Shown here: positions 6,900-57,861 of the stretch, in pieces
Layout of the letters: each line of letters starts with the position of its first letter
Position numbering within the stretch: the stretch's first letter is position 1
Assembly (NCBI GenBank): GCA_009780315.1
Contig: WRAH01000010.1
Span: 1 to 64,000, forward strand
From: Defluviitaleaceae bacterium
GTDB taxonomy: Bacteria; Bacillota; Clostridia; Lachnospirales; WQUN01
Reading direction: 5' to 3'
DNA length: 64,000 nucleotides
Position numbers and translations under genes: made by a program
The notes under the pieces: model-generated
Seen by the model: the letters and a program-made list of their open reading frames with translations, nothing else
Database searches by the model: none
What the model was told of the DNA's origin: nothing

Positions 6900-8243
6900 C
6901 TACATACCAACAGAATATTTGAATTGGTTATATACATTGGCTTGCTGTTCTTTTTTATTGCACTCCTGTTGTTTTCCCTGTACTTTACCAAGTGGGCATA
7001 GACCACCGAAGCAAATCGGCAATATATTACATTCCTCGCATTTGTCATTTAAAAAGTTATATCGAACTACCCATGGCGCATGTTTTTGATGAAGAATATT
7101 AAATACACCCTCTTCTTCAACTTGTCCGATTTTGTTAAAATCATCATCCAATTTTAATGTGCATTTTAAAATTGCTCCATCGTAGTCTATGATAAACATA
7201 TTGGGTTTTGACGCGTAGCACAAACTATGAAATGGTTGAGAAAATACATTTTTCATTTCATTCTTTAACTCCAGACTTGCTACAATTTTTGCAATTTGAA
7301 TTTTAGACTCAACAAGATTTTCATTGGTTAATATATTAAGGTTGCTATCATTTTGTCCGCCCCATTTTTGCATATTGATATAACTTACGCTGAAACGAGG
7401 GTCATTGAAATTTTCTTTAATAAAACTATAAAAATCTTTAGCATGTGTTGTCATTTCTTCATCAAAATTAGAGCGTATAGTAATTTTAAAATCGTGGCCG
7501 GTACTTTTTGCGTACAGTAAATTAGAAACAATCGTTTCAAAAGATGGACTGCCATCTGCTTTGCATTTTCGGGCATCATGAGTAAGAGCCAGACCATCTA
7601 AAGTGATTTGAAAAAACTCGCAATTAACTGTGGCAAGCGCGTCAAATCGTTCAGGTGTTACAAGGGAGAAGTTTGTAGTAGCACTAGCGGTAAAAGGAAC
7701 ATCATGATTTTTACATATTTCCTTAGCTTGCTTTAAGAAAGCGATAACCTTATCGAATGGTAAAAAAGGCTCTCCGCCAAAAAGGTTAATTTGAACCGCA
7801 GAATGTAAATTCTTTTCAAGAGACTTGTCTATATAGGTTAATAAATTTCTATACACACTGTCAGTCATATACTTATCTTGTAAATCTTCATAACAGTACA
7901 CACAGCGAAAATTACATTGACGTGTAGGCAAAAGCGTGAGACTTAGAACATTTGATTTTAGAATAGTTTGCTCGTATTGATACAATGCCATTTCATACTC
8001 ATTGACACCAGTTTCCGCAAAAATACCGTGTTCATAAAAAACTTGGTGCATTTCGTCATCTTTATCATAATCAAAAACATAATGACTATCTTTATCAAGA
8101 AATTTTTTAAGCTTGTCTAAAAAGGGTTGTTCATCTATATGCAATATGGCACCACTTAAAGTGTTTGCTACAACATATGTACCATCATCACGGGGGATAA
8201 ACAAAGTATATTTACTTATTAAAAGTTGCTTTGACGCTGTCAT
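6900..8243 (-). CDS. radical SAM/SPASM peptide maturase
   Basis: A 447-residue enzyme. The radical SAM motif C-x3-C-x2-C is at residues 110-117 (CNFRCVYC), with the GGEP motif after it. The C-terminal SPASM region has the Cys cluster CEECNILPICFGGLCP plus further cysteines (C at SLCYA, ILKC, QECN), enough for two auxiliary iron-sulfur clusters. The N-terminal 90 residues may bind the leader, as in thioether-forming maturases. GGAGG precedes the ATG. It is the first gene of the minus-strand operon with the Cys peptide and two ABC transporters. Confidence 0.9.
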   Translation of the reverse strand: MTASKQLLISKYTLFIPRDDGTYVVANTLSGAILHIDEQPFLDKLKKFLDKDSHYVFDYDKDDEMHQVFYEHGIFAETGVNEYEMALYQYEQTILKSNVLSLTLLPTRQCNFRCVYCYEDLQDKYMTDSVYRNLLTYIDKSLEKNLHSAVQINLFGGEPFLPFDKVIAFLKQAKEICKNHDVPFTASATTNFSLVTPERFDALATVNCEFFQITLDGLALTHDARKCKADGSPSFETIVSNLLYAKSTGHDFKITIRSNFDEEMTTHAKDFYSFIKENFNDPRFSVSYINMQKWGGQNDSNLNILTNENLVESKIQIAKIVASLELKNEMKNVFSQPFHSLCYASKPNMFIIDYDGAILKCTLKLDDDFNKIGQVEEEGVFNILHQKHAPWVVRYNFLNDKCEECNILPICFGGLCPLGKVQGKQQECNKKEQQANVYNQFKYSVGM

Positions 8244-8386: not shown

Positions 8387-8445
8387 ATAGGATGTCGAAT
8401 ATTGATATGCTTAAAGCAAAATATAGTCAAGGGAGATGTTTAAAC

Positions 8446-8613
8446 ATGATAAGAAAAAGTCGTATTGTTTCTAGGATGTTAACACTTGCTGTTGGTGCAA
8501 TGTTGGCAATGGGGTTGTTGTGGACAAGCCCAGCGGTTGTGAGTGCTGACACAAGCTATATTGAATCAATACCATTTGATTGTGATTGTCCAACTATTCG
8601 TCCTGTTAATTAA
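8446..8613 (+). CDS. 55-residue secreted peptide, candidate signalling pheromone
   Basis: The gene has GGGAG at 8431-8435, 10 bases before the ATG; longer in-frame starts lack a site. The product has a clear Sec signal peptide: positive start (MIRKSR), a hydrophobic core (residues about 12-26) and a cut site after SPAVVSA. About 21 residues would be released, with the centre SIPFDCDCPTIRPVN. It converges on an HTH-TPR regulator. Known RRNPP regulators (PlcR, NprR) use such secreted, reimported peptides, so a pheromone role is likely. It could instead be a second substrate of the radical SAM enzyme. Confidence 0.7.
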   Translation: MIRKSRIVSRMLTLAVGAMLAMGLLWTSPAVVSADTSYIESIPFDCDCPTIRPVN

Positions 8614-8619
8614 ATAAGA

Positions 8620-9531
8620 TTATTGTATTAAGATGCCGAAATTTTCTTCGGCATCTTTTTTTATTATTGCGGCACTTTCATTATCACCATGGGCGCGTGC
8701 GCAATAATATGCTTGCTCAAGATGACTTTTGTATACATACACTTCCTCTTTTAAAATGCGCTGACAGCAAGCGATATTATAATGTAGCCAAGGGGTATTG
8801 CCATAGGTGCTATATTTTTTTTCTAATTTAAGTGCTTCAAAAGAGGTGCTTAAAGCTTCTTCTATTCTTCCAGCTTTTCTAAGAAATCCTGCCAAGGTAT
8901 ACGTTAAAGAGGGGAATAAGATTCGCCTGTCATCCTCTGTAGTTTTAGCATTTTCTCTACCTTTAAGTATTGCTTTTATCAATTCAATACTTCTATCGTA
9001 TTCTTTTAAATCGTATAACTTAAATGCAATTTCAGTAACAATGAGAATCTCATGATATGTCATTCGCTTGTTGATTACTTCGGTTTCATTATAGTCTTTC
9101 ATTGTCATTTTGATAATTTTTTCAAGGTCAATGATAGCTTGTTCTGCTGTTAGGTCTTCGTTTGTAACAACATGTGCATAAGCGATAAACTGTTTGATAA
9201 AAGGTTCTTTTGCGAGCTTTGTTTTTTCAAAATATGGTAGAAACTTTCTTGCTTCATCAAGTCGGGAATTACTGCGTAATAGGAGATTAAGTTCACGATA
9301 TTTTCGATAGGCTTCATATTCGTCTGTGTCTAAATAAAGCATCCAAAAATTTTCTGTGGGTTGTCCTACTACTTGTGCGATTGACGCGAACTCCCAAATA
9401 GTTACATCCTTATATCCTTTTTCAATTTTGGATACTTTTTGCTGTGATATATTCAATTTTTCGGCTATGTCCGTTTGGCTTAAATTGGCTTCCTCACGCC
9501 ATTGTTTTAACGGTGTACTATTGATTTTCAT
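8620..9531 (-). CDS. HTH-TPR transcriptional regulator (RRNPP/Rgg-PlcR type)
   Basis: A 303-residue protein with an N-terminal Xre-type helix-turn-helix (residues about 8-62, SQTDIAEKLNISQQKVSKIE) and an all-helical C-terminal part with TPR-like repeats (residues about 90-300). This is the architecture of peptide-sensing regulators of the RRNPP family. AGGAGG lies 7 bases before the ATG. It converges on the secreted 55-residue peptide gene and lies next to the radical SAM operon. In streptococci, Rgg-type regulators control radical SAM peptide operons in the same setting; control here is inference. Confidence 0.82.
   Translation of the reverse strand: MKINSTPLKQWREEANLSQTDIAEKLNISQQKVSKIEKGYKDVTIWEFASIAQVVGQPTENFWMLYLDTDEYEAYRKYRELNLLLRSNSRLDEARKFLPYFEKTKLAKEPFIKQFIAYAHVVTNEDLTAEQAIIDLEKIIKMTMKDYNETEVINKRMTYHEILIVTEIAFKLYDLKEYDRSIELIKAILKGRENAKTTEDDRRILFPSLTYTLAGFLRKAGRIEEALSTSFEALKLEKKYSTYGNTPWLHYNIACCQRILKEEVYVYKSHLEQAYYCARAHGDNESAAIIKKDAEENFGILIQ
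8630..8663 (+). terminator. terminator of the secreted peptide gene
   Basis: Stem AAGATGCCGAA / TTCGGCATCTT with a 6-base loop and a T run. It lies inside the 3' end of the convergent regulator gene, so both transcripts overlap here. Confidence 0.85.
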
Positions 9532-32218: not shown

Positions 32219-32291
32219 GCCGACTTAGCTCAGTTGGTAGAGCAGCTGATTTGTAATCAGCAGGTCGCCGGTTCGAGTCCGGCAGTCGGCT
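32219..32291 (+). tRNA. tRNA-Thr (TGT anticodon)
   Basis: A full cloverleaf: acceptor GCCGACT / AGTCGGC with T as discriminator, D arm with AGTTGGTAG, anticodon arm CTGAT TTGTAAT.. (anticodon TGT), T arm GCCGG TTCGAGT CCGGC. CCA is not encoded. A terminator follows, and the 3' end faces a tyrosine integrase gene. Confidence 0.96.
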
Positions 32292-32413: not shown

Positions 32414-33526
32414 TTAGTCTAATAGATTTACTGCATCGCTTTTTATGTTAGGCATAACATGGCTGTATACGTCAAGTGTAATTTGTACAGATGCATGTCC
32501 AAGTAAATCACTCACAACTTTTGGGTTTACGCCCTTTTCTAATAGCCTAGTTGCGAAAGTATGGCGTAGTGTATGAACAGTTATTGAATCGGACAAGTTG
32601 CAATTTTTCAATAATTCATTGAATGCGCGTCCAATATTCCGATATGCAAGAATGGTTTCAGATTTAGATGAAAAAATAAATATACTATTATTTTTTTCTT
32701 TTTGTCTATTTAGAACCTTCATTGATGTGTCATTCATTGGTATAGTTCGAATGCTATGAGCGGTCTTGGCTGTGTCAATTATAGTTTTTCTTTTGGTGGT
32801 AGCCTCTTCATCACGATTAACTATGTCAGAAACCGTTTTGCTTATTTCAATAGTTTTTTCTTCAAAGTTAACATCTTCCCATAATAATGCTGTGCTTTCC
32901 CCAACCCTCATTCCAGTATTCAGTAGAAATATAAATAAATTATGATAGACTGACTCATTGCAATGTTGTATGAGCATTTTTTGTTGCTCTACGGTCAATG
33001 CAGTTATTTTTTTCTTTTCTGATTTTGGACGAACAGTGGCTTTGCAAGGGTTCGCATGTATCAATTCATTTTTAATAGCTTGCTCAAAAGCTTGTGATAG
33101 AGTTATATGGGTAATTCGTATTGTACTAGCTGATAAATTTCTCTTATGCATTTGATTGTATAACTGTTGTATAGAATCAGGACGAATTTTATTTAGCTTT
33201 AGATTGCCAATAGAATCCCTAATGTGCTTATTTAAAGAATACTCATAACTATCATAAGTTTTTGACTTCAATGTATTTGCTTTGTAATTTTCAAGCCAGA
33301 ACTGTACCCACTCTGCTACAGTATAATTACTGTTTTGAGTTATTACATTTCTGTTGAGTCTAAATTTTTCATCATTGATTTTTTTATGTAGTGTTTCTAG
33401 CGACTTGCTAGTGAACACTTTTTTAATGCGTTTTCCATTTGCATCATAACCTAGTGTAATTTCGGAACGCCAAAGACCATCTGGTCGCTGGTATATTGTC
33501 CCTTCTCCATTGGTGCGTTTGGGCAT
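32414..33526 (-). CDS. tyrosine recombinase (phage/ICE-type integrase)
   Basis: A 370-residue integrase. The N-terminal arm-binding domain (GTIYQRPDGLWRSEITLGYD) is followed by a SAM-like core-binding domain and the catalytic domain. Catalytic residues: Arg in NTGMRVGESTAL, His-x-x-Arg in HTLRHTFATRL, His in LLGHASVQ and Tyr in LDVYSHV. It lies 122 bases from the 3' end of tRNA-Thr and points toward it, the usual layout for an element inserted in a tRNA gene. Confidence 0.94.
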   Translation of the reverse strand: MPKRTNGEGTIYQRPDGLWRSEITLGYDANGKRIKKVFTSKSLETLHKKINDEKFRLNRNVITQNSNYTVAEWVQFWLENYKANTLKSKTYDSYEYSLNKHIRDSIGNLKLNKIRPDSIQQLYNQMHKRNLSASTIRITHITLSQAFEQAIKNELIHANPCKATVRPKSEKKKITALTVEQQKMLIQHCNESVYHNLFIFLLNTGMRVGESTALLWEDVNFEEKTIEISKTVSDIVNRDEEATTKRKTIIDTAKTAHSIRTIPMNDTSMKVLNRQKEKNNSIFIFSSKSETILAYRNIGRAFNELLKNCNLSDSITVHTLRHTFATRLLEKGVNPKVVSDLLGHASVQITLDVYSHVMPNIKSDAVNLLD

Positions 33527-35048: not shown

Positions 35049-36035
35049 ATGCAAAGAACAATCACGATAGACCACGGCAACCGCCTGATTAAAACAGCAA
35101 ACCATATATTTCCTGAAAGTTATGTAGAAAGCGGATATCTGCCAGGGATTGGGTCAGATGTACTGAAGCACAATGGCAAGACATACACTCTTGTTGACCA
35201 AAGCTTACCTGTACTTAACGATAAAACCGAAGATGAAAGATACTTCATTTTAACCTTGTTTGCTTTGGGCAAGGAACTTGAAGAAGATGCAGAGACTTTA
35301 AGAAAACTCAGTACAAACCCAAATGATTTCATCAAAGTAAATTTATTGGTAGGGTTGCCATTACAACATTACGAAACCTACCGCAAAAGATTTCAAAGGT
35401 ATTTTACTCAGCACCAAGAGCCAATTATATATGAACTGAACAATAAGTCCTACAAAATAAAAATAACCAGCGCACATGTCTACCCACAGGCTTTTGCTGC
35501 TGCATTGACGGCGCACAATGAGATTAAGCACTCCAATACAGTGAACGTAATAGATATTGGCGGCTTTACAGTGGATTGTCTTCAACTAAACAACTTCAGA
35601 CCTAATATGACCCTATGCACTTCACTATATCTAGGGGTTCGGACGCTGTTTGACAAAATAAATGAACAAGCGCGCGCAACCGGAGGTAAAGACATTGCTG
35701 ACAATATCATTGAATCAATCCTCAACAATGAGCCTCACGCTTTAGCTGAGTATAGCGAAAAGCGCATAAACTTGGTGCAAAATACAGCTTACACGTATGC
35801 TGACCGTATGCTTGCAGAAGTTGCACAAAAAGGTTTTGACCTAGAAGAGGATAGAACTGTGTTTATGGGCGGTGGAGCTATTCTAATGAAAAAATACATT
35901 CTTGAATCAAACCGAGCTAAGAAATCTCTATTCATTGACGATGTACGCGCCAATGCCAAAGGATACGCTATTTTACATGAAATGAAAAACCATACAGGTA
36001 GTCATGCAAGAAATATAGCCAATGGGGGTGAGTGA
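35049..36035 (+). CDS. ParM/StbA-like actin-family partition protein
   Basis: A 328-residue actin-like ATPase. Phosphate loops are seen at TITIDHGNRLIKTA and VNVIDIGGFTVDCLQLN, and the adenosine motif at VFMGGGAILMKKYI. ParM filaments push apart plasmid copies. With the next two genes it resembles a type II partition operon, so the element may at times exist as an extrachromosomal form. AAGGAGG precedes the ATG. Confidence 0.85.
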   Translation: MQRTITIDHGNRLIKTANHIFPESYVESGYLPGIGSDVLKHNGKTYTLVDQSLPVLNDKTEDERYFILTLFALGKELEEDAETLRKLSTNPNDFIKVNLLVGLPLQHYETYRKRFQRYFTQHQEPIIYELNNKSYKIKITSAHVYPQAFAAALTAHNEIKHSNTVNVIDIGGFTVDCLQLNNFRPNMTLCTSLYLGVRTLFDKINEQARATGGKDIADNIIESILNNEPHALAEYSEKRINLVQNTAYTYADRMLAEVAQKGFDLEEDRTVFMGGGAILMKKYILESNRAKKSLFIDDVRANAKGYAILHEMKNHTGSHARNIANGGE

Positions 36036-43365: not shown

Positions 43366-45513
43366 ATGTCAAACATAAAATTAGTGGTTGCCGAGAAGGG
43401 GTCTGTTGGGAAATCCATAGCCCAAGCTATTGGAGCAAAAAGCCGTAAAGATGGCTACTATGAAGGCAACGGATATATTGTGTCTTGGGCAGTTGGGCAT
43501 TTAATTGGACTTGCTCAACCAGAGGACTATGATGCCAAATACAAAAGATGGAATTATGGGGATTTGCCTATAATTCCTGAACAATATAAGTATAACCCCG
43601 GTCCAAAAACCAAAAGCCAACTAAAAATATTGGTTGAACTGATGAAGCGCAAGGACATAAGTACAATTGTAAACGCTTGCGATAGCGGAAGGGAAGGGGA
43701 GTTGATATTTCGATTGATTTATAACCATGCGGTAGCAAACAGTGCAAGTGTTGGCAAAAAAGCTACAGAGCGGTTATGGATATCCTCAATGGAAGAAAGT
43801 GCAATCATTGATGGCTTCAATAAATTAGCACCAGGCAAAGCATACGATAAGCTTTATCAAGCCGCACTATGCCGTCAACAGGCAGATTGGGTGGTCGGCA
43901 TGAACTTCAGCCGCCTGTTTTCAATAATTCATAATGCCCAGCTTCGCGTAGGTCGAGTGCAAACCCCAACCCTAGCTATGTTAGTGGAACGCGCAGAGCG
44001 TATAGCAAACTTTATCAAAGAATCATTTTACGTAGTTGAATTAGAAGGCGCATTGCCCAAAGGAGCGTTACGAACCCAACGGGAACGGCTTGATGATAAG
44101 GCTCTAGCTGATGATATTGCTGAAAAGTGCAACGGCAAAATGGCTACCGTTCAATTCATTGAAAATCAAAGAAAAAATGTATCTCCACAAAAGTTATATG
44201 ACTTAACCACACTTCAAAGAGAAGCAAACCGTCTCTTTGGTTATACAGCAAGTCAAACCTTGGAGATTGCTCAAGAACTTTATGAGAAACACAAACTACT
44301 TACTTATCCACGTACTGACTCCCGATTTCTCACAGAGGATATGGAGGTCGGGCTGCCGGCTTTAATCAAATCTACCATAGGTATGCTTCCCTATGGTGTG
44401 GCTATAAAAGTAAAAAATACTAATCCAAAGCTTGTGGTTAATAATGCCAAGGTATCAGACCATCATGCCATTATACCAACCCCATCAATCTCCACTATTA
44501 ACCCATCTATCCTTCCAGAAAAAGAGCGTAACATTCTTTTACTGGTGGCTACAAGATTTATTTCTGCCATGTCAGGTAAATACATTTTTGATGAAACCGC
44601 AGTGGTCGTAGCGTGCGAAGGTGAAATTTTCAAAACCAAGGGTAAAACGCTGGTTGAAGGAGGCTGGATGGATATAGAACGCGCTTTCTTGCTGGGTATT
44701 GGAAAAGCTCCGAGAGATGAAGGAGAGCCGCTTCCTAAGATTGAAAAAGGTATGAAGTTTGCAGCAACTACAAGTGTTCGTGAGGGCTTTACTCAACCCC
44801 CTAAACATTACACAGAAGATACACTATTATCAGCCATGGAGAATGCCGGTAGTGAAGATATGCCGGATGATGCAGAACGAAAAGGACTTGGCACACCTGC
44901 TACACGGGCAAATATTATTGAAACCCTTGTAAAAGCTGGCTTTGTAGAAAGAAAGGCAAAAAATCTTATTGCCACTGATATGGGTGTAAAGCTTATTAGT
45001 GTGCTGCCGGACAATGTTAAATCTCCAAAAATGACGGCTGAGTGGGAGTATTCCCTAAAGGATATCGAAAAAGGTAATCGTATAATGGTAGATTTTATGT
45101 CATCCCTTGGGCTTATGGTTAGAAGTACAGTTGAAAAATATCAACCCTTAGATGTATCGGGTAGTAGTGGTGGAAGCAGTGAAGCATCGCCGTTTACAAG
45201 AAATCAAGAGCCGTTGTCAGAAGAATCAATCATTGGTGATTGCCCAAGGTGCGGTAATTCTGTAGGGGAAAAGCACAAAGGATATTTTTGCTTTAACAAT
45301 GAATGTAAATTTGCATTATTTAAAGACAATAAGTTATTTACTTCACAGAAGAAAAAAATCACAAGGGATATAGCCGTTGCGCTCGTCACCATGGGTAGTA
45401 CTCAAGTCAATGGGTTTATCTCCAAGAAAAGCGGAAAGCCCTATAATGCCATGGTGATATTGGATGCTTCGGGTGATGGATGGCCGCAGTTTCGGTTGGA
45501 TTTTGTGAAATAG
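43366..45513 (+). CDS. topB: DNA topoisomerase III
   Basis: A 715-residue type IA topoisomerase. The Toprim motif is at the N-terminus (VVAEKGSVGKSIAQAIG, then ACDSGREGELIF). The active-site Tyr is in LTYPRTDSRFLT. The C-terminus has a zinc ribbon (CPRCGN ... CFNNEC) and an extra C-terminal repeat. TopB genes are a standard part of conjugative elements, where they help separate DNA. GGAG lies about 9 bases before the ATG. Confidence 0.96.
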   Translation: MSNIKLVVAEKGSVGKSIAQAIGAKSRKDGYYEGNGYIVSWAVGHLIGLAQPEDYDAKYKRWNYGDLPIIPEQYKYNPGPKTKSQLKILVELMKRKDISTIVNACDSGREGELIFRLIYNHAVANSASVGKKATERLWISSMEESAIIDGFNKLAPGKAYDKLYQAALCRQQADWVVGMNFSRLFSIIHNAQLRVGRVQTPTLAMLVERAERIANFIKESFYVVELEGALPKGALRTQRERLDDKALADDIAEKCNGKMATVQFIENQRKNVSPQKLYDLTTLQREANRLFGYTASQTLEIAQELYEKHKLLTYPRTDSRFLTEDMEVGLPALIKSTIGMLPYGVAIKVKNTNPKLVVNNAKVSDHHAIIPTPSISTINPSILPEKERNILLLVATRFISAMSGKYIFDETAVVVACEGEIFKTKGKTLVEGGWMDIERAFLLGIGKAPRDEGEPLPKIEKGMKFAATTSVREGFTQPPKHYTEDTLLSAMENAGSEDMPDDAERKGLGTPATRANIIETLVKAGFVERKAKNLIATDMGVKLISVLPDNVKSPKMTAEWEYSLKDIEKGNRIMVDFMSSLGLMVRSTVEKYQPLDVSGSSGGSSEASPFTRNQEPLSEESIIGDCPRCGNSVGEKHKGYFCFNNECKFALFKDNKLFTSQKKKITRDIAVALVTMGSTQVNGFISKKSGKPYNAMVILDASGDGWPQFRLDFVK

Positions 45514-46336: not shown

Positions 46337-47311
46337 ATGGATTTTATAAGGGAAATTTTAGCCTTTGAGCGGTGGCTCTATACAAACCATCTGCCGCCAA
46401 TCTCCCAATTGATTTGGTATAAACTTTTTATGCTTTGCAATGGTGCGGGTTGGCCGGAATGGGTCGTTGTGGAGAATGCTGCACTCATGGCACAAATTCA
46501 CCTTAGCAACAAGGCTTCGTTTATTGGTTATCGTGATAAATTGCTTGAGTGCGAGCTTATCGAATATCAAAAAGGTCGTAAAGGAAGCCCTAATAGGTAC
46601 AAAATGTGTTCATTGATAGGAGAAGAAAATAGGTACGAATTAAAACCCCAAATGATACCTAAAACCGCACTCCAAGCAATACCTGAGTCAATACCCGACG
46701 CAAACAGGTACGAATTGGAACCCCAAGCCATACCTGAGACCGTACTCCAAACAGTACCTAAACCAATACCCCAAATAATACCCAAACCAGCACTCTTATA
46801 TAAAGATAAATATAAAGAAAACAAAAACCTATTTATCGTTGTTGACGATAACAGCACAGACAGGTACGAATTGGAACCCCAAATAATACCTGAAACTGTA
46901 CCCCAAAATAGTCAAAACTCGGTTACATCTGTAATTGACCAATATGGTGGTGTAATACAGCACGTTCAAGCCCATTATCATAAACTCATGGGAAATATGC
47001 TTAGTCCAACTGCATACATGGAAATTGCAGATTTCTTAAATTCCGGAGTTGAATCACAGCTTATGTGCCGTGCAATTGATATCAGTATTGATGCAAATGT
47101 GCGGAATTGGGCATATGCAAAAAAAGTTATCAACACGTGCATTTCCCAAGATATATTGACTTTGGTGCAGTATGAAACTCATGAAGCCAATAGAAAAGCC
47201 TTAAAAATGCGAACAAATGGAGGTGTAAACTCATATGCAGGAAATGGCAGCCATTATCAATTCGATAAATCAAACAACCCATACCAAAACATTCGCAGTG
47301 GAAAGCTGTAA
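46337..47311 (+). CDS. DnaD-like replication initiator with internal repeats
   Basis: A 324-residue protein. The N-terminal winged helix (residues 5-85, FIREILAFERWLYTNHLPP) resembles phage replisome organisers. The middle has a Pro-rich repeat: RYELKPQMIPKT, RYELEPQAIPETV and RYELEPQIIPETVPQ, each followed by more IP units. The C-terminal part (residues about 205-275) is DnaD-like (YGGVIQHVQAHYHKLMG to VRNWAYAKKVIN). It loads the helicase with the DnaC-like protein that overlaps it. Confidence 0.75.
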   Translation: MDFIREILAFERWLYTNHLPPISQLIWYKLFMLCNGAGWPEWVVVENAALMAQIHLSNKASFIGYRDKLLECELIEYQKGRKGSPNRYKMCSLIGEENRYELKPQMIPKTALQAIPESIPDANRYELEPQAIPETVLQTVPKPIPQIIPKPALLYKDKYKENKNLFIVVDDNSTDRYELEPQIIPETVPQNSQNSVTSVIDQYGGVIQHVQAHYHKLMGNMLSPTAYMEIADFLNSGVESQLMCRAIDISIDANVRNWAYAKKVINTCISQDILTLVQYETHEANRKALKMRTNGGVNSYAGNGSHYQFDKSNNPYQNIRSGKL

Positions 47312-48185
47312 CGCTGACGCTGAATTGCTTGTTGCAAGAATGATAACCATTGGCGCAAAAGCTGACTTTAGTAATGCTATAGGACGTTGCCCTAACTGTG
47401 ACGAACCACTGCAAGCAGATAAAGAAATCTTAGGTGTTATGCGTCGTGTGCCTATTATTTGCAAATGCCGTGTGGAAGCGCAACTTCGTGATGCAGAGCG
47501 GGATAAAACTGCAGAGCAACAAAGACGGCTAGATAGGTTTCGTGTGTATTCACTCATGGATAAGCAGTTTAGTCATTCTACTTTTGAAAATTGGGAGCTT
47601 AGAGCTGATAACCAAAAGCTATATGATTTTGCAAAGGGATACTGTGAAAATTGGGACACCATGTTTGCAAATAATAGAGGTGTTTTACTACATGGCAAAT
47701 CTGGCAATGGAAAGACTTATGCTGCATTTTCAATAGCCAACGAGCTTTATAAAATGGGCAAAGCAGTCCTTGCAATATCCATTTCACGAATTTTAGAAAT
47801 TATCAAAGACAGCTACAACAAGCACGGTGATATAGGTGAAATTGAAATACTTAATATTCTTAACGAAGCCAGTTTGCTTATTCTTGATGACCTTGGCGTG
47901 GAGTATAAGACTCCTTGGGTGTATGAGAAGCTTTATAGCATTATAGATATACGTTACCGGGCAAGAAAGCCTGTTATCATTACAACCAATCTTTCTCCAG
48001 ATGAACTGATGCGTAATTTATCCATAATTGATATGAGAAATGGTATTTACGATAACACAGGTAGGATTTATAACCGTATTATTGAGATGTGTACCATGTT
48101 AGAAGCAACAGGAGATAGCTGGCGTATTCAAAAGGCAGAGGATAATCAAGATGCATTGTATCGGGATTTGAAATGGAATGATTAA
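47235..48185 (+). CDS. DnaC/IstB-like helicase loader ATPase
   Basis: A 316-residue AAA+ protein. A Cys-type zinc motif lies at the start (CPNCDEPL ... CKCR). Walker A is GKSGNGKT, Walker B LLILDDLGVE and sensor ITTNLS. AATGGAGGTG lies 10 bases before the ATG, which is inside the DnaD-like gene (77-base overlap). DnaD-like and DnaC-like proteins form the replication start pair of the element. Confidence 0.88.
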   Translation: MQEMAAIINSINQTTHTKTFAVESCNADAELLVARMITIGAKADFSNAIGRCPNCDEPLQADKEILGVMRRVPIICKCRVEAQLRDAERDKTAEQQRRLDRFRVYSLMDKQFSHSTFENWELRADNQKLYDFAKGYCENWDTMFANNRGVLLHGKSGNGKTYAAFSIANELYKMGKAVLAISISRILEIIKDSYNKHGDIGEIEILNILNEASLLILDDLGVEYKTPWVYEKLYSIIDIRYRARKPVIITTNLSPDELMRNLSIIDMRNGIYDNTGRIYNRIIEMCTMLEATGDSWRIQKAEDNQDALYRDLKWND

Positions 48186-48454: not shown

Positions 48455-50134
48455 ATGAACCGTGAAGAAATTAAGGAATATATCGCTGCAAAAAAAATAA
48501 ATGAGCGATATTATGCAACTAGAAAGTTGAAGGCAACAGTCGCTATAAATTTTACCTGTCTTGTTTTATCTGTATTCTCCACAATTTTGATACTACCTAT
48601 ACAAGTGATACTACCTATACAATCAGCAGAATACGCTACCCAGTTTGAAAGGATTTTTTCGATTGTAATAATTTTTTTGCCAAGTATATATGCAGTAATG
48701 GGAACGATAGCCCTATTATTTCATCCGAGAGATACTCATGAAATACATGTAATCACATTCATTGCAAATACAGCTAATGCATTTTCATATTTCTTCTCCA
48801 CCCTACTACTACTATACTTAGGGCAGAGAGGGGTATTGATTATGTTAGAGTACACTAGCAGTGTTTCTGAATTTGTAGTCGTTACAACATCAATTCTTGG
48901 TTTAATTGTTATAGCAATTTCGCACTTTTTTAGATATCAACAAGCAAGTATGCTGGGAATACCGCTGAAAGTTACAATGCAGCAAAATGCACATGAAATA
49001 ATCGACCTGCTCGTTTTGGTTTTTCTGATTGGCGTTGTTGGGATTATTGTGCCGCCTGCAATAATGTTGTCAAATATGGTTATAGATTATGGGATACCAC
49101 TGATAATGATTTCAGTAACTGTAGGTATATGTACTGCATGGAGTCGTTTATTTAATATTTCGCAAATAGAGAGAAAAGGGTTAAATTTTTTCTTCTTAAT
49201 TTTTGTAACTATCCTAGCTTTAGCTTCTGCAATCTTATTTATTTGGTTTTATGTTGATTTGCAGAATGCATCTTTTATGAAGTCGCTTACAGTGGTAACT
49301 ATGCTTAGTATTCCAACGCTTATTATTTATAGTTACTTGATTTTTATGATATTTTGTCTCGGATGTGTTATATCACGGAGAATATATGACCAAAGACAAA
49401 TATTTGACAAATATAAAACACCTATGACCGTATGTATTGATGAAACGCTTTATCTTGTAGCCATGAGGCATACTAAAGAAAAGTGGATACTGATTCCGTG
49501 TGAAATTGTTGAGAATCATCTTGGATTCAAAAAAGGTGAATTTATTATAAGAAGCCTAGATGAATTAACAATACAACAGCGTAAGTATGAAGGTATCATA
49601 AAATTAGGCGATAAGATACGTGAAAAATCTATTTTATCAAGCATTATTCAACTAATCATGGGTAAAATTCTAGTCTTGATAGTCAATGTGGGTTGTTTTT
49701 TACCATTGAAATGTATTAAAAAAAGTGGTAACTATCAGCTCTCACATACCTTTCAACGAAGAATACGAAACGGGCATGTTTTCATCATGTGGGTAAAGCC
49801 ATCACGAAATTTTCCGGATAATCCATTTGTAAGTCCTGTAATCTTAAATGAAAATAACAATACAAAAGGTAAGCATATTAGCATTGCGAATGGTGTTTCA
49901 TATTGTGTTTCTGTTAAGTCACAAAAGGAAGGTAGGTTTAAGCGAAAGAAAGTAGTAATAGATGCAGAGGTAAATATAGCCATCCATCGTATAAAAACAG
50001 GTGTATGGATTATGTCGTATCCACTGGTTAATGTTACACCTCCGTATCAAATACACTTTACAGATGCCAAAACGGTATATCGTTCAGGGTTTTGGATAAA
50101 CAGCGATATAGATAGGTTAATATCGTTAGAGTGA
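48455..50134 (+). CDS. polytopic membrane protein A, 559 residues
   Basis: Eight or more membrane segments in residues about 30-320, then a soluble C-terminal domain. The block KTPMTVCIDETLYLVAMRHT followed by KEKWILIPCEI is also in the 422-residue protein B at 50618. The function is unknown. GGAGG lies about 9 bases before the ATG. After its TGA the same frame stays open for 60 more codons (50135-50314), which may be lost coding sequence. Confidence 0.65.
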   Translation: MNREEIKEYIAAKKINERYYATRKLKATVAINFTCLVLSVFSTILILPIQVILPIQSAEYATQFERIFSIVIIFLPSIYAVMGTIALLFHPRDTHEIHVITFIANTANAFSYFFSTLLLLYLGQRGVLIMLEYTSSVSEFVVVTTSILGLIVIAISHFFRYQQASMLGIPLKVTMQQNAHEIIDLLVLVFLIGVVGIIVPPAIMLSNMVIDYGIPLIMISVTVGICTAWSRLFNISQIERKGLNFFFLIFVTILALASAILFIWFYVDLQNASFMKSLTVVTMLSIPTLIIYSYLIFMIFCLGCVISRRIYDQRQIFDKYKTPMTVCIDETLYLVAMRHTKEKWILIPCEIVENHLGFKKGEFIIRSLDELTIQQRKYEGIIKLGDKIREKSILSSIIQLIMGKILVLIVNVGCFLPLKCIKKSGNYQLSHTFQRRIRNGHVFIMWVKPSRNFPDNPFVSPVILNENNNTKGKHISIANGVSYCVSVKSQKEGRFKRKKVVIDAEVNIAIHRIKTGVWIMSYPLVNVTPPYQIHFTDAKTVYRSGFWINSDIDRLISLE

Positions 50135-50313
50135 AAAGAAACTGTTACTATAAACAGTTGTAATGCGCACTATTTCAAATTAGAACATCTTAATCCAGTA
50201 AATATATTTTGTAATGCAAGTGTTGCAATTCTGGAACAATCGGGTGATGAGTGTAAGATTCATCTTAAAGCGTTAGACAATTATAAAATTTCAGATAAAG
50301 GAGACAAAACAAC

Positions 50314-50586
50314 ATGAACAAAACATTACTACCATTGGGAAGCATCATTATCCCCAAAGAGGGTGAAAAGAAGCTTATGATTATAAGTAGGGTAACGCAC
50401 ATAGAAGGTCACGGTATTTTCGACTATACCCTTGGTTTATGGCCCGAAGGATATATTGATGAAGAACAAATTTACTTCCTAAATCATGAAGATATTGAAA
50501 GAATAGTTCATCAAGGTTACTCGGATGCGGAAGACATGGAGATTGTACTTAAATTGAGTGGGTTGACGGAGGATGATTTCATGTAA
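50314..50586 (+). CDS. DUF4176 protein
   Basis: A 90-residue protein with the DUF4176 pattern: LPLGSIIIPKEGEKKLMIIS, then DYTLGLWPEGYI and FLNHEDIERIV. DUF4176 proteins are often encoded with type VII secretion and LXG toxin loci. No WXG100, EccC or LXG protein is in the window. AAGGAG lies about 10 bases before the ATG. It lies between the two paralogous membrane proteins. Confidence 0.8.
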   Translation: MNKTLLPLGSIIIPKEGEKKLMIISRVTHIEGHGIFDYTLGLWPEGYIDEEQIYFLNHEDIERIVHQGYSDAEDMEIVLKLSGLTEDDFM

Positions 50587-50617
50587 ATCATAATATTATA
50601 GAATAGGAGTGAACAAA

Positions 50618-51883
50618 ATGAGAATGAGATATGAAAAATCCGAGGAATTTTACTATACTAAATCTCGCCCCTATCTAGGGAAAAGAAAATTTATTAACAA
50701 CTATCTACCTTGGATTTTTTACTTAATAGTTTACATGATTAATTTATTTCATATTTTGCCTCAGATAGGGGCACGGATAGGGATTATATCGCTCATAACC
50801 TTTGGGAGAAACCCACTTTTTATACTGATGATTTTGAGTGGAGCAATAGCCATATGTATGTTCATGTTATTTATTGGTTGGCGAGTCGATGAGTATAATC
50901 ATTATGTTTGTAAATATGATTGCACTCCCAGTCGTACTGCATCAATGACTGTGCTAATTGTAATTACGTATTTCGTATTCACTTTATATGTAGTATACTT
51001 GCTCATAGAGGTGGTGGGTATTATTCAGAATTTAAGTGAATTTATGACTATACTGAGTGACAGTACTTTTATTGCAGTTGTGGCGATGGGGTTTGTCTCT
51101 GCATTATATACAAGTTTATTGAGATTGCTTCAAGCTGAAGGTGTTTATAGTATTCATGTAGGTCTGACATATAGCAGACCTATAGACTACTTTTTGGACT
51201 TTATAATTATAAATTTATTGTTAGGTTGTGGTGTAATATTTCCTTTTATATTAAATAATATGGCGGTTGCATTTCCAAACGAGTTTCCTTGGGATGGTCT
51301 GATTGTAAATTTACTCTTAGCAAATGCAGTCACCATAATATATATGCTTTGGAGTATGTGTAAAGAAAGGACAATCGGGTTGAAAGTGATTTGCTTTATT
51401 ATAGGTTTTATTGGTGTGGTGCTAACGACTATGTCGGTATTGCATTACACCTTGGGGGAAGATATATCTAATCATCCCATATTAGAAAATATTTTGTTTA
51501 TAGCCACTATCATACATGCTTTTTTTATATTTATATTTGCTGTGATGTATACAATAATAAAAGCATTTAGAGGCAAATGGATAACAAAGACTCAAACAGC
51601 ATTGATAACCTATATAAAGAACATAGATGGTGACGATATACCACATTTAATCACTATGAGAAGTACAGAATCAACATGGATTATTATGCCATGTCAGCCA
51701 ATACCTAATGAGAATCAAGTCATTGATAATAAAGAAAATAATCTACTCATTTTTACACTTGCATTTGACCCCAGTAGATATTTAGTACGTAGCTTAGAAG
51801 GGTTACAAGTTGAGGAAATTGTATGCGATAAACTTATACAAAAAAAGGTTAAATACCAGCAGTCGATAGAAAGGAATAAATAA
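50618..51883 (+). CDS. polytopic membrane protein B, 421 residues
   Basis: About eight membrane segments in residues about 25-320, then a shorter soluble tail. The tail block TALITYIKNIDGDDIPHLIT then MRSTESTWIIMPCQPI and RYLVRSLEGLQVEEI matches protein A, so A and B are paralogs. ATG 50618 has AGGAG 8 bases upstream. It has no recognised function; with DUF4176 between, a secretion or immunity role is possible. Confidence 0.65.
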   Translation: MRMRYEKSEEFYYTKSRPYLGKRKFINNYLPWIFYLIVYMINLFHILPQIGARIGIISLITFGRNPLFILMILSGAIAICMFMLFIGWRVDEYNHYVCKYDCTPSRTASMTVLIVITYFVFTLYVVYLLIEVVGIIQNLSEFMTILSDSTFIAVVAMGFVSALYTSLLRLLQAEGVYSIHVGLTYSRPIDYFLDFIIINLLLGCGVIFPFILNNMAVAFPNEFPWDGLIVNLLLANAVTIIYMLWSMCKERTIGLKVICFIIGFIGVVLTTMSVLHYTLGEDISNHPILENILFIATIIHAFFIFIFAVMYTIIKAFRGKWITKTQTALITYIKNIDGDDIPHLITMRSTESTWIIMPCQPIPNENQVIDNKENNLLIFTLAFDPSRYLVRSLEGLQVEEIVCDKLIQKKVKYQQSIERNK

Positions 51884-52070: not shown

Positions 52071-52111
52071 AAACAACCCCCGACCGAAATCAATTGGTCG
52101 GGGGTTGTTTA
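52071..52111. terminator. terminator between convergent units
   Basis: Stem AACAACCCCCGACC / GGTCGGGGGTTGTT with a 10-base loop; T residues on both sides. Confidence 0.85.
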
Positions 52112-52135: not shown

Positions 52136-52291
52136 CTAGTTCCCTATTGCCAATCCACCACTCCATGGGTCTGGACATACACTCACATTCAAAGAGGGGC
52201 AAACTGTATTGCACACATTTGAGCAAACCGACGGGCAAACCGACTGGGTTTCCATCATGTCACAACACATACCTTGAATTAAATAATCCAT
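52136..52291 (-). CDS. 51-residue Cys-rich peptide, candidate thioether peptide precursor
   Basis: GGAG is 8 bases before the ATG. The N-terminal part is MDYLIQGMCCDMMETQS. The core region is CPSVCSNVCNTVCPSLNVSV and then CP, which gives five cysteines spaced C-x3-C-x3-C-x3-C-x7-C; a Gly-rich tail ends it (WSGGLAIGN). There is no signal peptide. It lies directly after a radical SAM/SPASM gene on the same strand. Regular Cys spacing is the hallmark of sactipeptide and ranthipeptide substrates. The exact family is not recognised. Confidence 0.78.
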   Translation of the reverse strand: MDYLIQGMCCDMMETQSVCPSVCSNVCNTVCPSLNVSVCPDPWSGGLAIGN

Positions 52292-52376
52292 TTGACATTC
52301 TCCTTTCTATAGATTTATATAATAGACAAAGTCTATCATTTAATAAAAAAGTAAATTATACTTTTCAATAAGTGCT

Positions 52377-53708
52377 TTAACTAGAGATAGTTTTTGAACC
52401 AGGTTTACTCTTATTAATGCGATGGGCAATTATTTTTTGTGATACGGTGATTAAGTAGCTTTCAAGCTTATATTTGTAAGTGCTACAGGTATCTTGATCG
52501 TTTACCCTTCTATAAGGGCATCCACCCATACACACAGGCAATAAATTGCAATCAGAACATATTGAATTTTCTGTAGCATCGTGCAACATATAGTTTAGAT
52601 GTAACGTATCATTCGCATTCGAGTTTATCAATAGATTTCCTATAGAGGCGTCTATATTACCAATGTCCACCCAGCACTTGTAAAGGAAACCACTGGCATC
52701 AATCACAAACGAGTTGACAGCATCAGCTGTACAGACATTGCTTTTGATACGTGGATATCTAAAGTTATATCCCAGCTCATCAATATATTTACTAAAATAA
52801 TCAAAATCAACTTCAGAAAAACCGCATATATCAAAACACTTAGAGGCGTCATAGGTATTGTTGTCTGGATTTACCTTTCCGAGATAGGGCTTCACTTTAT
52901 CAAGCAAATTCAATTTTGATAAGAGACTCATAACATCTTCCGCTTGCTTGACATTATATTTATCAACATTCACCCTAATTGAAACAGGTGGCAAAATATC
53001 TTTACTTTCAAGAAGGTTTCCTAAAATAGTGTCAAATGTGCCAAAACCATCAATGAGTGGTCTACGTTGGTCGTGCATGTCCTTGTTGCCATCAATGGTT
53101 ACTTGCATAGATGAAACCTGAAGTTTCTTTAACAGCTCTGCGTTTTCTCTTGTTAAAAGATATCCGTTAGTGATGATGTTGCTATTGTATGCAATACCAT
53201 TTTCTTCGCAAATATCTAAAAACGATTTCGACATCCTCTCTACAATATCCAAAGCCATAAGAGGCTCGCCACCATACCACGCCACACTTAAATAAGACAA
53301 GGTATTAGCTTGCGATCTAACTAAATCAATGATTTTATCCTGAACTTCTATTGACATATAATTTGGCTTAATTATATCCTCTTCATAACAGTATGTGCAA
53401 CGAAAATTGCAATCTGTTGTCGGTGTGATGGTGAGTCCTAAAGAACGAGTTTGATACCTGCTTTTTAGCATACGTAGTCGTAAAAGACCTAGTTCATCAC
53501 ATTCGCTATCAACAAGAAATCGACCAACCTTTAGTTGCTCTAAAAATTCTTTGTCTTCAATGTTCTTTCCGCTATCAATAAAACAAGTAAAAACTTTATA
53601 CTTGTCCTTGTCCATCAACGCTAGAGCATTTGAGAATGAATTATATGCAATAATTTTATCACTATCGGCTTCATGCGGAAAAAAGAAATTGTAATTTGAT
53701 GCTTTCAT
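52377..53708 (-). CDS. radical SAM/SPASM peptide maturase
   Basis: A 443-residue enzyme: radical SAM motif CNFRCTYC at residues 100-107, AWYGGEPLM after it, and a SPASM end (CSDCNLLPVCMGGCPYRR, plus C at FLYKC and SNVC). The N-terminal 90 residues are a possible leader-binding domain. It differs clearly from the maturase at 6900-8243. Only the peptide gene follows it; no transporter or protease is adjacent. A promoter with an operator-like palindrome lies upstream. Confidence 0.9.
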   Translation of the reverse strand: MKASNYNFFFPHEADSDKIIAYNSFSNALALMDKDKYKVFTCFIDSGKNIEDKEFLEQLKVGRFLVDSECDELGLLRLRMLKSRYQTRSLGLTITPTTDCNFRCTYCYEEDIIKPNYMSIEVQDKIIDLVRSQANTLSYLSVAWYGGEPLMALDIVERMSKSFLDICEENGIAYNSNIITNGYLLTRENAELLKKLQVSSMQVTIDGNKDMHDQRRPLIDGFGTFDTILGNLLESKDILPPVSIRVNVDKYNVKQAEDVMSLLSKLNLLDKVKPYLGKVNPDNNTYDASKCFDICGFSEVDFDYFSKYIDELGYNFRYPRIKSNVCTADAVNSFVIDASGFLYKCWVDIGNIDASIGNLLINSNANDTLHLNYMLHDATENSICSDCNLLPVCMGGCPYRRVNDQDTCSTYKYKLESYLITVSQKIIAHRINKSKPGSKTISS

Positions 53709-53727
53709 ACTCGGCTCCCTTTTTCTT

Positions 53728-53763
53728 ACATTGATTGCTTTGTAGTCAATGTATGTTATTATA
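53728..53763 (-). promoter_or_regulatory. promoter -10 and operator-like palindrome of the second maturase
   Basis: On the minus strand TATAAT (53763-53758) is followed by ACATTGA-N11-TCAATGT (53752-53728), which covers the expected start site. A 7-bp perfect palindrome there suggests repression. No clear -35 was found. Confidence 0.55.
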
Positions 53764-53952
53764 CAATCTATATATTACTAATGAAAATATAATAACACAA
53801 AAATTCACTTTGTTCAATAAATATATTTTCTAAACGTACATGGTTTATATTGGATGGTGTAACTGAATTAATACGAAAAATCCCTTGAGGGAAAGCACGA
53901 CAAAAGAGCCTAGCGAGAGAGCAAGGTAATGAAAGTAAGATAGAGATGAGAG

Positions 53953-55209
53953 TTAAGCAACTTGTACCAGATTAAAGCTTAATTTTTTAGCTTCAGCGGC
54001 TAACTTGTGTAGACAAGCGGATTCCTGTTTTAACTTTGCAGCTTCAAGTTTTTCTTCGTTATAAACATCTTGGTTCTTCAAAAGGTTATAGGTAATAGCG
54101 AGTATTTTTCTAGCCAATGCAATAACAGCCTTTTTAGCACCACGCCGCTGTTTGACCTTCCAATAAATTTTGAAAGGTATGAGCTTCTAACCCAAACAGC
54201 CGACCAAGCGCACTCGCAAATTATGCCTTTGATGTAGGGGTTGCCAAAAGTGATTCTTGTACTTTATTTTACCAGCACTCGTATTGTCACCTGGAACAAC
54301 ACCAGCCTAAGAGCAAAAATGTTCTGCCGTAGGAAATTTACTCATGTCAGATCCTATTTCGCCAACAATGGCGGTGGCAGAAGTTAATCCAATGCCCGAG
54401 ATTGTGCTAAGACGCTCAATATCATCATTCCATTTGGCGGACAATTCGCTAATGGATTCTTCAATAGTTTCAAGATGTGTGAGTAAGCCGTCTAGCAAGG
54501 TGATTTGCAGTTGTAAAAAGTACCGCTGTTTTTCAGTAAGTTTACCATTTATGGCTCGCTTAATATCAGCTTTCTTTTCTTTTGATATGCGACGTGTTTC
54601 ATTGTCTACATCATGGGGTAAAAGCTTGCCATTTTTAATAAGGACGCTAATGCGATTTCTGCCCGAAACACCAAATACGTCAGAAAGGAATGATGACAGC
54701 TTGAACCCTGCTTGCTGGAGTGTTTTCTCAATACGGTTTTTCTGCGTATTTATGTCCTGTACAACATTCTTGCGGTATCTGGTTAATTGTCTTAATTCCC
54801 GAACATCTTGGGGTGGTATGAAACTTCCAGCCAAAAGACCCGCATGCAAAAGACCTGCAATCCACTTTGCACCTTTCATATCTGTCTTTTTGCCAGGGAC
54901 GTTGCGCATATGGCGGACATTGGTGACTAAGATATTCATTTCGTCACCACAAGCATCTTCAATAGCTTCATAAATGGGATGCCTGTATATGCCTGTGCTT
55001 TCCATTGCTACATTGGTACAGTTTTCTGATTCAAGCCGCTCTCTAAGTTTTACTAGTTCATCAGGAAAAGTGCCGAAAACTCGTATTTCCTTTTCAACAT
55101 CAGCACTAGATTGTTTTGATTCTGATGTTGTGCAAGTTTTAAGAATACACGCGACAACAGAATCCTTGTGGACATCCATTCCACAGCAGTTGTGTAAGAT
55201 TGTTTGCAT
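53953..55209 (-). pseudogene. IS110-family transposase, decayed
   Basis: The intact part (55209-54307) has the DEDD domain: MDVHKDSVVACIL, AMESTGIYRHPIYEAIED, KTDMKGAKWIAGL, and the start of the transposase_20 domain (STISGIGLTSATAIVGEIG). A TAG (54307-54309) stands where Trp is expected (HFCS-stop-AGVVPGDNTSAGK). Further down, frame changes occur before KQRRGAKKAVIALARKI and the end at 53953. The C-terminal serine region is thus lost. ATG 55209 has GGAGAG upstream. Confidence 0.85.
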
Positions 55210-55616
55210 TTGACGTTCTCTCCACAGTGATATTGCAGAGAATTGACCCGAGGTGTTTCTGAAGCTTAATACTCGTGCTATTCCTGCATACAAGATACAG
55301 GGCGACATTTGGCGGTACTCTAAGGTCATAAGTTTATGTTGGGAGTCGAGGTTATACCTTCATTATTCGTCCAAACTTTGTCTCTGCTGTTTGTAGTTTA
55401 TCACTTGTTTGTTGGAACGTTAAGAAGTATTAAAAATTAGTTATGCACCAGACCAATTTTCATGCTTTGATGGTGAAGGTCGCCTTTAATGGGCGTTAGG
55501 AGGAGAAAAGTTAAAGGATGTTGACAAACAATACCACTTGCACCTAAGTTTATTTAAAGATGTTAAGCTAAAGGCAGGGCTTGCTAATGTTGATTATTGT
55601 ATGGTTTATTAGGATT
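55210..55616. other. left flank of the IS110 remnant; no gene
   Basis: The first 120 bases continue an open frame upstream of the likely transposase start without a ribosome binding site. From 55330 no gene was seen. In intact IS110 elements this side holds the bridge RNA, but no clear fold was recognised here. Short coding-like stretches (about 55,500-55,600) may be remains of the next gene. Confidence 0.5.
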
Positions 55617-56950: not shown

Positions 56951-57861
56951 TTATTCCAACATAATCTTATTCCGAGGATGCTTAAGAGTAAGGATTTGAC
57001 GTTGCTTTTCCATAGTAACTTGTGTATATATTTGAGTCGTCTGGATTGAACTATGTCCTAACATTCGCTGTATATATCGAATATCTACATCCTCCTCTAG
57101 TAAAAGGGTCGCAAATGAATGTCTAAACATATGCGGCGTGATATGCTGGGAGATACCCGCTTTTGAACAAAGTCGCTGTATCATAAAGCGCACCGATTGT
57201 TCAGATACACGGGTGGCTAAACGATTGACAAAAAAAAATCCGATTCGTATTTATTTGATTTTTGATATTGTTGTAATGAGTTTATTACCTCCACATTTCC
57301 AATTTGGATTATACGTTCTTTTGCACCTTTGCCCATTATTCGGATAGTTCCGTCATCTAGGCTAATATCACTGGTTTTTAATGAACATAGTTCGGAAACC
57401 CTTATCCCTGTTGCAAATAGAGTTTCCAACATCGCTCGATCACGCAGTGCAACAAACTTACTATATGGTGTACAAGCTAGTTCTTTTTCTCTCAACGCAG
57501 TATCCAAAAGCTGTTTAATGCGTTGTAATGATATTGTCTTTGGTAATTGCTTTGGTTCTTGAAATCGTGTTTTTACTTTTCTGATTGGGTTTATTTCAAG
57601 AATTTCCTCAAATTCAAGGTAGTTTAGAAATGCTCGTAAACTAGCAAGTTTACGTTTAACTGTTTTCGCTGGATACTTTTGGTGAAGTTCTTGGATGAAT
57701 CCAGATATCGTTGCTTTTGAAATGGTTTGGTCACTCTGACTAACTAAGTACGTTATGAACTGTTGAAGGTCAATTGAATATGCTTTGATTGATAAATTAC
57801 TTAATTTCTTATGATATTTGCAATAGTTTAAATAGATTGTAATTTCATTTTGAATATTCAT
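56951..57861 (-). pseudogene. XerC/D-type tyrosine recombinase with frameshift at a T run
   Basis: Two frames together give a full recombinase of about 300 residues. Part 1 (57861-57217) has the SAM-like N-domain and catalytic Arg (LFATGIRVSELCSL). Part 2 (to 56951) has HxxR (HMFRHSFAT), LGHSS and Tyr (TTQIYTQV). They are joined at a run of nine T (minus strand, about 57238-57230); ten T would restore GAT-TTT-TTT-TTT-GTC in frame. All catalytic residues remain. It is either a pseudogene or is rescued by slippage. Confidence 0.75.

Follow-up and report, generated by a model that had tools for sequence, protein, structure and literature searches.

The window, a 64,000-nucleotide stretch of DNA from a Defluviitaleaceae gut bacterium (contig WRAH01000010.1, positions 1 to 64,000), carries on its minus strand a cassette of two genes, a radical SAM/SPASM peptide maturase and a Cys-rich precursor peptide, which is not a new kind of system but, by sequence comparison, an unnamed relative of the little-characterised Clo7bot family that lacks an exporter. 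We consider it likely that this is a RiPP cassette with a thioether-bridged product, in which the RRE domain of the maturase would grip the leader MDYLIQG of the precursor as an added beta strand. Transcription would begin at a promoter with a palindromic operator over its start region and end at a terminator 3' of the precursor. The cassette would be cargo of a conjugative-type element integrated at a tRNA-Thr gene, and the exporter and protease of its relatives would either have been lost from it or never have been part of it. The product, which may act as a bacteriocin or a signal, would probably leave the cell through a host transporter, and the host does encode a fitting candidate.

The maturase and the 51-residue peptide that the first-pass annotation had described are both present as open reading frames (52377-53708 and 52136-52291, minus strand), separated by a gap of 85 nt with the precursor downstream. 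In their order along the minus strand, the features of the cassette are:

53758..53787, minus strand: sigma-70-like promoter TTTTCA-18-TATAAT (a consensus match only, with a regional match count near chance)
53727..53753, no strand: exact operator-like palindrome TACATTGAYT-N7-ARTCAATGTA, between promoter and maturase start
52377..53708, minus strand: radical SAM/SPASM peptide maturase, 443 aa (ORF, PF04055, TIGR04334, AF2 model, PDB matches)
53454..53708, minus strand: N-terminal RRE domain, maturase residues 1-85 (three strands then three helices; RRE structure matches)
53388..53411, minus strand: radical SAM cluster motif CNFRCTYC (C100, C104, C107), CX3CX2C in the Radical_SAM domain
52485..52733, minus strand: complete 7-Cys SPASM motif C-x13-G-x4-C ... 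C-x2-C-x5-C-x3-C ... C (C326-C408)
52315..52343, no strand: AT-rich inverted repeat between maturase and precursor (repeat search)
52136..52291, minus strand: precursor peptide, 51 aa, 7 Cys, MDYLIQGMCCDMMETQSVCPSVCSNVCNTVCPSLNVSVCPDPWSGGLAIGN (ORF with GGAG ribosome site; family conserved 3' of related maturases)
52271..52291, minus strand: minimal leader MDYLIQG, conserved recognition strand (per-position information across motif-bearing peptides)
52175..52237, minus strand: core Cys ladder C19-x3-C23-x3-C27-x3-C31-x7-C39, with Val before each Cys (precursor sequence)
52071..52110, minus strand: intrinsic terminator after the precursor, with a 15-bp perfect stem (fold against shuffles, z -4.83)

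The palindrome, reported earlier as operator-like, is exact and lies just 3' of the -10 box (TATAAT, 53763-53758). A genome-wide pattern search returned it as a single occurrence, and no palindrome resembling it was found in the upstream regions of related maturases. The RNA fold of the intergenic hairpin region (52315-52343) is no better than that of shuffles (z -0.59).

The catalytic motifs of the maturase are intact, and the protein scores 59.9 bits against PF04055 (cutoff 29.5). In its AF2 model (pLDDT 86.5) it is predicted to combine an RRE, a radical SAM and a SPASM domain in an architecture that most resembles those of anSME and of CteB, a thioether synthase, the two structural matches being of about equal strength (anSME, Z 26.0 over 329 residues; CteB, Z 25 over 400). 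The match to CteB (PDB 5why/5wgg), top-ranked by Foldseek, runs from the maturase N-terminus on; the match to SkfB is limited to the catalytic part, and the catalytic core also resembles ChlB and the epimerase EpeE. The N-terminal domain was modelled and searched alone, because the whole-chain comparison hardly probed it: its 89 residues gave a pLDDT of 92 and matched TigE (Z 8.1), the TbiB1-leader complex (6.7), the lasso B1-leader complex (6.1), ThcOx (6.0) and CteB (3.9). In CteB the leader is held as a beta strand in the RRE and the product has a gamma-carbon thioether link (PMC8326336); by analogy, MDYLIQG is expected to add as a beta strand to the RRE of the present maturase.

The precursor has seven Cys residues with successive spacings of 0, 8, 3, 3, 3 and 7. 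The spacing C-x3-C-x3-C-x3-C-x7-C given in the first-pass annotation is exact at C19-C39, and it left out C9 and C10. Shuffling the precursor 200,000 times reproduced the C-x3 ladder in 733 cases and the five Val-Cys pairs in 23, and the repeat units of the ladder have differing codons, which argues against a recent DNA duplication. The precursor matches no NCBIfam model, and among seven matches to the leader pattern in the host genome it is the sole Cys-rich peptide.

Related maturases were drawn from whole genomes and a genome collection, and at the 21 loci of the maturase's own branch every ORF with a ribosome site and ATG start up to 450 nt downstream of the maturase was counted, the opposite strand serving as control. 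The motif M-x-[YFVML]-[LIV]-[IVK] opens 18 of 30 downstream ORFs (16 of the 21 loci) versus 1 of 80 opposite-strand ORFs; the Fisher p of about 7e-12 is generous, since the motif was framed on some of the same loci, and the contrast is still large. Five loci have no motif peptide within the 450 nt limit, and at L081 one motif peptide lies just beyond it. By this measure the precursor is conserved with the maturase and the pairing is genuine; the refuting condition named on first reading, a precursor that does not go along with its maturase, was put to the test and did not apply, which supports the minimal maturase-precursor pair of thioether type (ranthipeptide- or sactipeptide-like) proposed on first reading. 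Two of the related maturases (L023 at G230:C12 and L017 at G030:C75) have one TAA inside the match, so that some relatives may be pseudogenes.

Across the motif-bearing peptides, each of the leader positions 1-7 (M-[EK]-[YF]-L-[IV]-x-[PG]) contributes 1.6-4.3 bits, against 0.6-1.3 at later positions; since the peptides were selected by the motif, these values are to be read together with the opposite-strand control count. Sequence conservation stops at about residue 7; beyond it the cores are hypervariable except for Cys, and whole peptides range from 27 aa to over 80 aa. The Cys ladder recurs in two of the four closest relatives, in the L046 peptide (CDVRCSNVCDINC / CDILRCNDFCDVRCSNVCDINC) and the L048 peptide (CDVRCNNVCGSRC / CDGFRCGSFCDVRCNNVCGSRC), both compared with CPSVCSNVCNTVC of the present locus, and L081, a more distant relative, contains eight C-x3-C steps, of which seven are consecutive. 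At L046 (WRKK01000200.1, 1589-4196), seven different leader-bearing peptides lie behind one maturase, a natural core library.

In the maturase tree the present enzyme groups with four maturases from termite-gut MAGs (SH-aLRT 99), recovered from the hindgut of Termes hospes and Embiratermes neotenicus, and apart from the Clo7bot controls. Its best NCBIfam model is that of Clo7bot (TIGR04334) at 317 bits, below the curated cutoff of 600 that control members exceed with 727 and 772, and hence, although it would work in a Clo7bot-like manner, it is no Clo7bot member by the curated test; the precursor likewise has no match to TIGR04333, whose 31-bit cutoff is exceeded by two of three Clo7bot control peptides (52.2, 43.2 and 27.6). 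The likeness to Clo7bot lies in full-length maturase homology (37-38% identity to ctpM of a Paraclostridium plasmid) and in the Clo7bot precursors, which have a short N-terminal strand (MKFIKKP/MKYIVKP) and a Cys-rich core; the Clo7bot locus examined differs in having about nine peptides, placed 5' of the maturase, plus an exporter. The second and third best maturase models are those of TIGR04463/CefB (Cys-every-fifth), and CefA opens with MQYLVQP, but the CefA examined is, unlike the present precursor, several hundred residues long, carries C-x4-C repeats and is encoded next to a radical SAM C-methyltransferase. Since Clo7bot peptides and CefA share the opening strand, a single style of recognition seems to serve the whole wider group. 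The earlier statement that the sequence matches no family is therefore not quite right for the pair, as the maturase is a relative of the Clo7bot and TIGR04463/CefB enzymes, and the precursors of these have the short N-terminal strand in common with the present one.

Other known systems resemble the cassette in part. SCIFF ranthipeptides (CteA/CteB, Tte1186a) share the RRE-radical SAM-SPASM layout and have a spacing of 2-3-3-3-6 against 3-3-3-7 here, but the maturase reaches only 84.8 bits against TIGR03974 (cutoff 425) and the precursor has no TIGR03973 match; the host genome has a separate SCIFF gene (L007), whose SCIFF peptide scores 71 bits. Freyrasin (PapA/PapB) likewise has repeated short-spaced Cys units with several bridges possible, whereas the PapB model gives 135 bits on the maturase (cutoff 340) and the present core is without regular Cys-Asp pairs. 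The CXXX-repeat RiPPs (TIGR04115/TIGR04117) share the C-x3 repeat core but differ by score, the maturase reaching 68 bits (cutoff 350) and the precursor having no match. Among the papers searched there was nothing on Clo7bot or geopeptides, including the chemistry of Clo7bot-type enzymes, and the bond type is therefore argued by analogy with CteB (about 20% identity).

The cassette is part of an integrated element and stands beside an IS110 transposase that is indeed debris, both as the first-pass annotation had described; within the element, the replication module is on one side of it and the transfer module on the other:

32219..32291, plus strand: tRNA-Thr, presumed attachment site
32414..33526, minus strand: tyrosine integrase, left end of the element (PF00589)
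35049..36035, plus strand: actin-like partition protein of the element (PF17989; phrog_691 partition protein)
43366..45513, plus strand: DNA topoisomerase of the element (PF01131)
46337..48185, plus strand: DnaB_2-domain replication protein and DnaC-like helicase loader, two overlapping genes
54307..55329, minus strand: IS110 transposase, truncated at its C-terminus by a frameshift (NF033542 positions 1-255 of 343)

TraG P-loop and T4SS-DNA_transf proteins are encoded on the same contig at 73298-76357 and 82567-83769, so that all components used to recognise an ICE (integrase, T4SS coupling protein and VirB4-type ATPase) are present. Together with the partition, topoisomerase and helicase-loader genes, these support a conjugative element as judged from gene content. 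No second att copy or attR was found within the window, and the element runs past the contig end. Movement between strains is suggested by the anatomy of the element, no second copy having been found; plasmid DNA searched with the cassette region gave no match, and Clo7bot cousin clusters were found on Paraclostridium plasmids. Adjoining the cassette (48455-51883, plus strand) are genes for a DUF4176 protein and for two large membrane proteins with multiple spans; the 424-aa membrane protein had no homologue among the 391 other genomes of the order that were compared. At 56951-57861 (minus strand), a frameshift divides the gene of a XerC/XerD-like tyrosine recombinase into two parts. A phage link was dropped after viral contigs gave one weak partial match to the maturase and none to the DnaB_2-domain protein, as was a defence role, for which PADLOC gave only generic viperin-like radical SAM similarity.

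An ABC exporter lies shortly 3' of the maturase in all four of the closest relatives and in the majority of the others with sufficient flank. An S41 peptidase stands beside the exporter at L050, L077, L078 and L103; at L079 the peptidase is present and the stretch examined showed no exporter; and a Zn-protease-like protein occurs at L052 and, by motif only, at L060. The present cassette has neither exporter nor protease genes beside it, in agreement with the first-pass annotation, and across the contig the relatives' exporter has homologues only in the ABC pair that belongs to the first radical SAM locus (3.3-6.6 kb), with no other remnant. The cassette is the most reduced form among Clo7bot-type RiPP relatives. 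On the host chromosome, an exporter (C1:188142-189815) groups with those of L047 and L048 (SH-aLRT 97), its closest relatives being the exporters of termite-gut Clo7bot-like clusters. As this exporter is of the matching clade, export of the product in trans is possible, a guess that can be tested. The exporter belongs to a radical SAM locus of its own (L074, C1:185500-194500), with a radical SAM/SPASM-TPR protein and a 58-aa Cys-containing peptide, and may serve that peptide only. A distant S41-like protein (27% over 526 residues) is encoded on host contig C7.

The missing exporter bears on two further readings. The cassette could be a decaying remnant, non-functional after losing exporter and protease, as nearly all relatives have an exporter and as an interrupted Xer-type recombinase and the debris of IS110 are close by; we think this unlikely, since the two ORFs and their ribosome sites are intact, as are the promoter, the terminator and every cluster Cys, and the ladder residues have been kept despite varied codons. 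Alternatively, the modified peptide might have an intracellular task, such as regulating or maintaining the element, with no need of an exporter. No exporter or protease is indeed encoded in the portion of the element that this contig covers, and the operator-like palindrome at the cassette promoter is unique; relatives whose leader and core are of the same type nevertheless sit with exporters, and a chromosomal exporter of the right clade exists, which makes an intracellular role quite improbable.

The nature of the modification is a separate matter. Spacing of the C-x3-C type is known in alpha-linked sactipeptides such as thuricin CD and, with the exporter and protease of the relatives, which fit a secreted product, speaks for an antimicrobial sactipeptide with alpha-carbon links like those of subtilosin and thuricin CD. 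Against it, the nearest thioether synthase by fold is CteB, a gamma-link enzyme matched over nearly the whole chain, while SkfB matches in the catalytic part only, and no immunity gene was seen; this is a possible reading, if a doubtful one, and similarity of the predicted fold does not settle alpha against beta/gamma bonds. A modification other than a thioether, such as epimerisation or C-C crosslinking, would agree with an RRE closest to that of TigE and with the matches of the catalytic core to anSME, ChlB and EpeE, but has a slim likelihood given that Cys is the one feature common to otherwise hypervariable cores. The thioether RiPP cassette is the reading we prefer.

The relatives described here form a family that present NCBIfam models, applied at their cutoffs, do not reach. 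Within it, maturases of one type appear to read a strand of seven residues while tolerating very different Cys-rich cores; the several cores found behind a single enzyme could serve as a practical platform for bridged peptides. The cassette is also a simple test case of a mobile element that carries a peptide maker without its exporter. It is conceivable, if rather unlikely, that the conjugative element carries precursor and maturase only and depends on a host-encoded exporter of the matching clade, in which case transfer would yield a new peptide product only in recipients with that chromosomal exporter.

At the other end of the window, the first radical SAM gene (6900-8243, minus strand) and its two ABC transporters are adjoined by a small peptide gene (8392-8613, plus strand), whose product has an N-terminal signal-like segment and ends in DCDCPTIRPVN. 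Tail-to-tail with it lies a gene for an HTH regulator with a helical-repeat-like C-terminal part (8620-9531, minus strand), and the two look like a peptide-pheromone pair of the RRNPP type.
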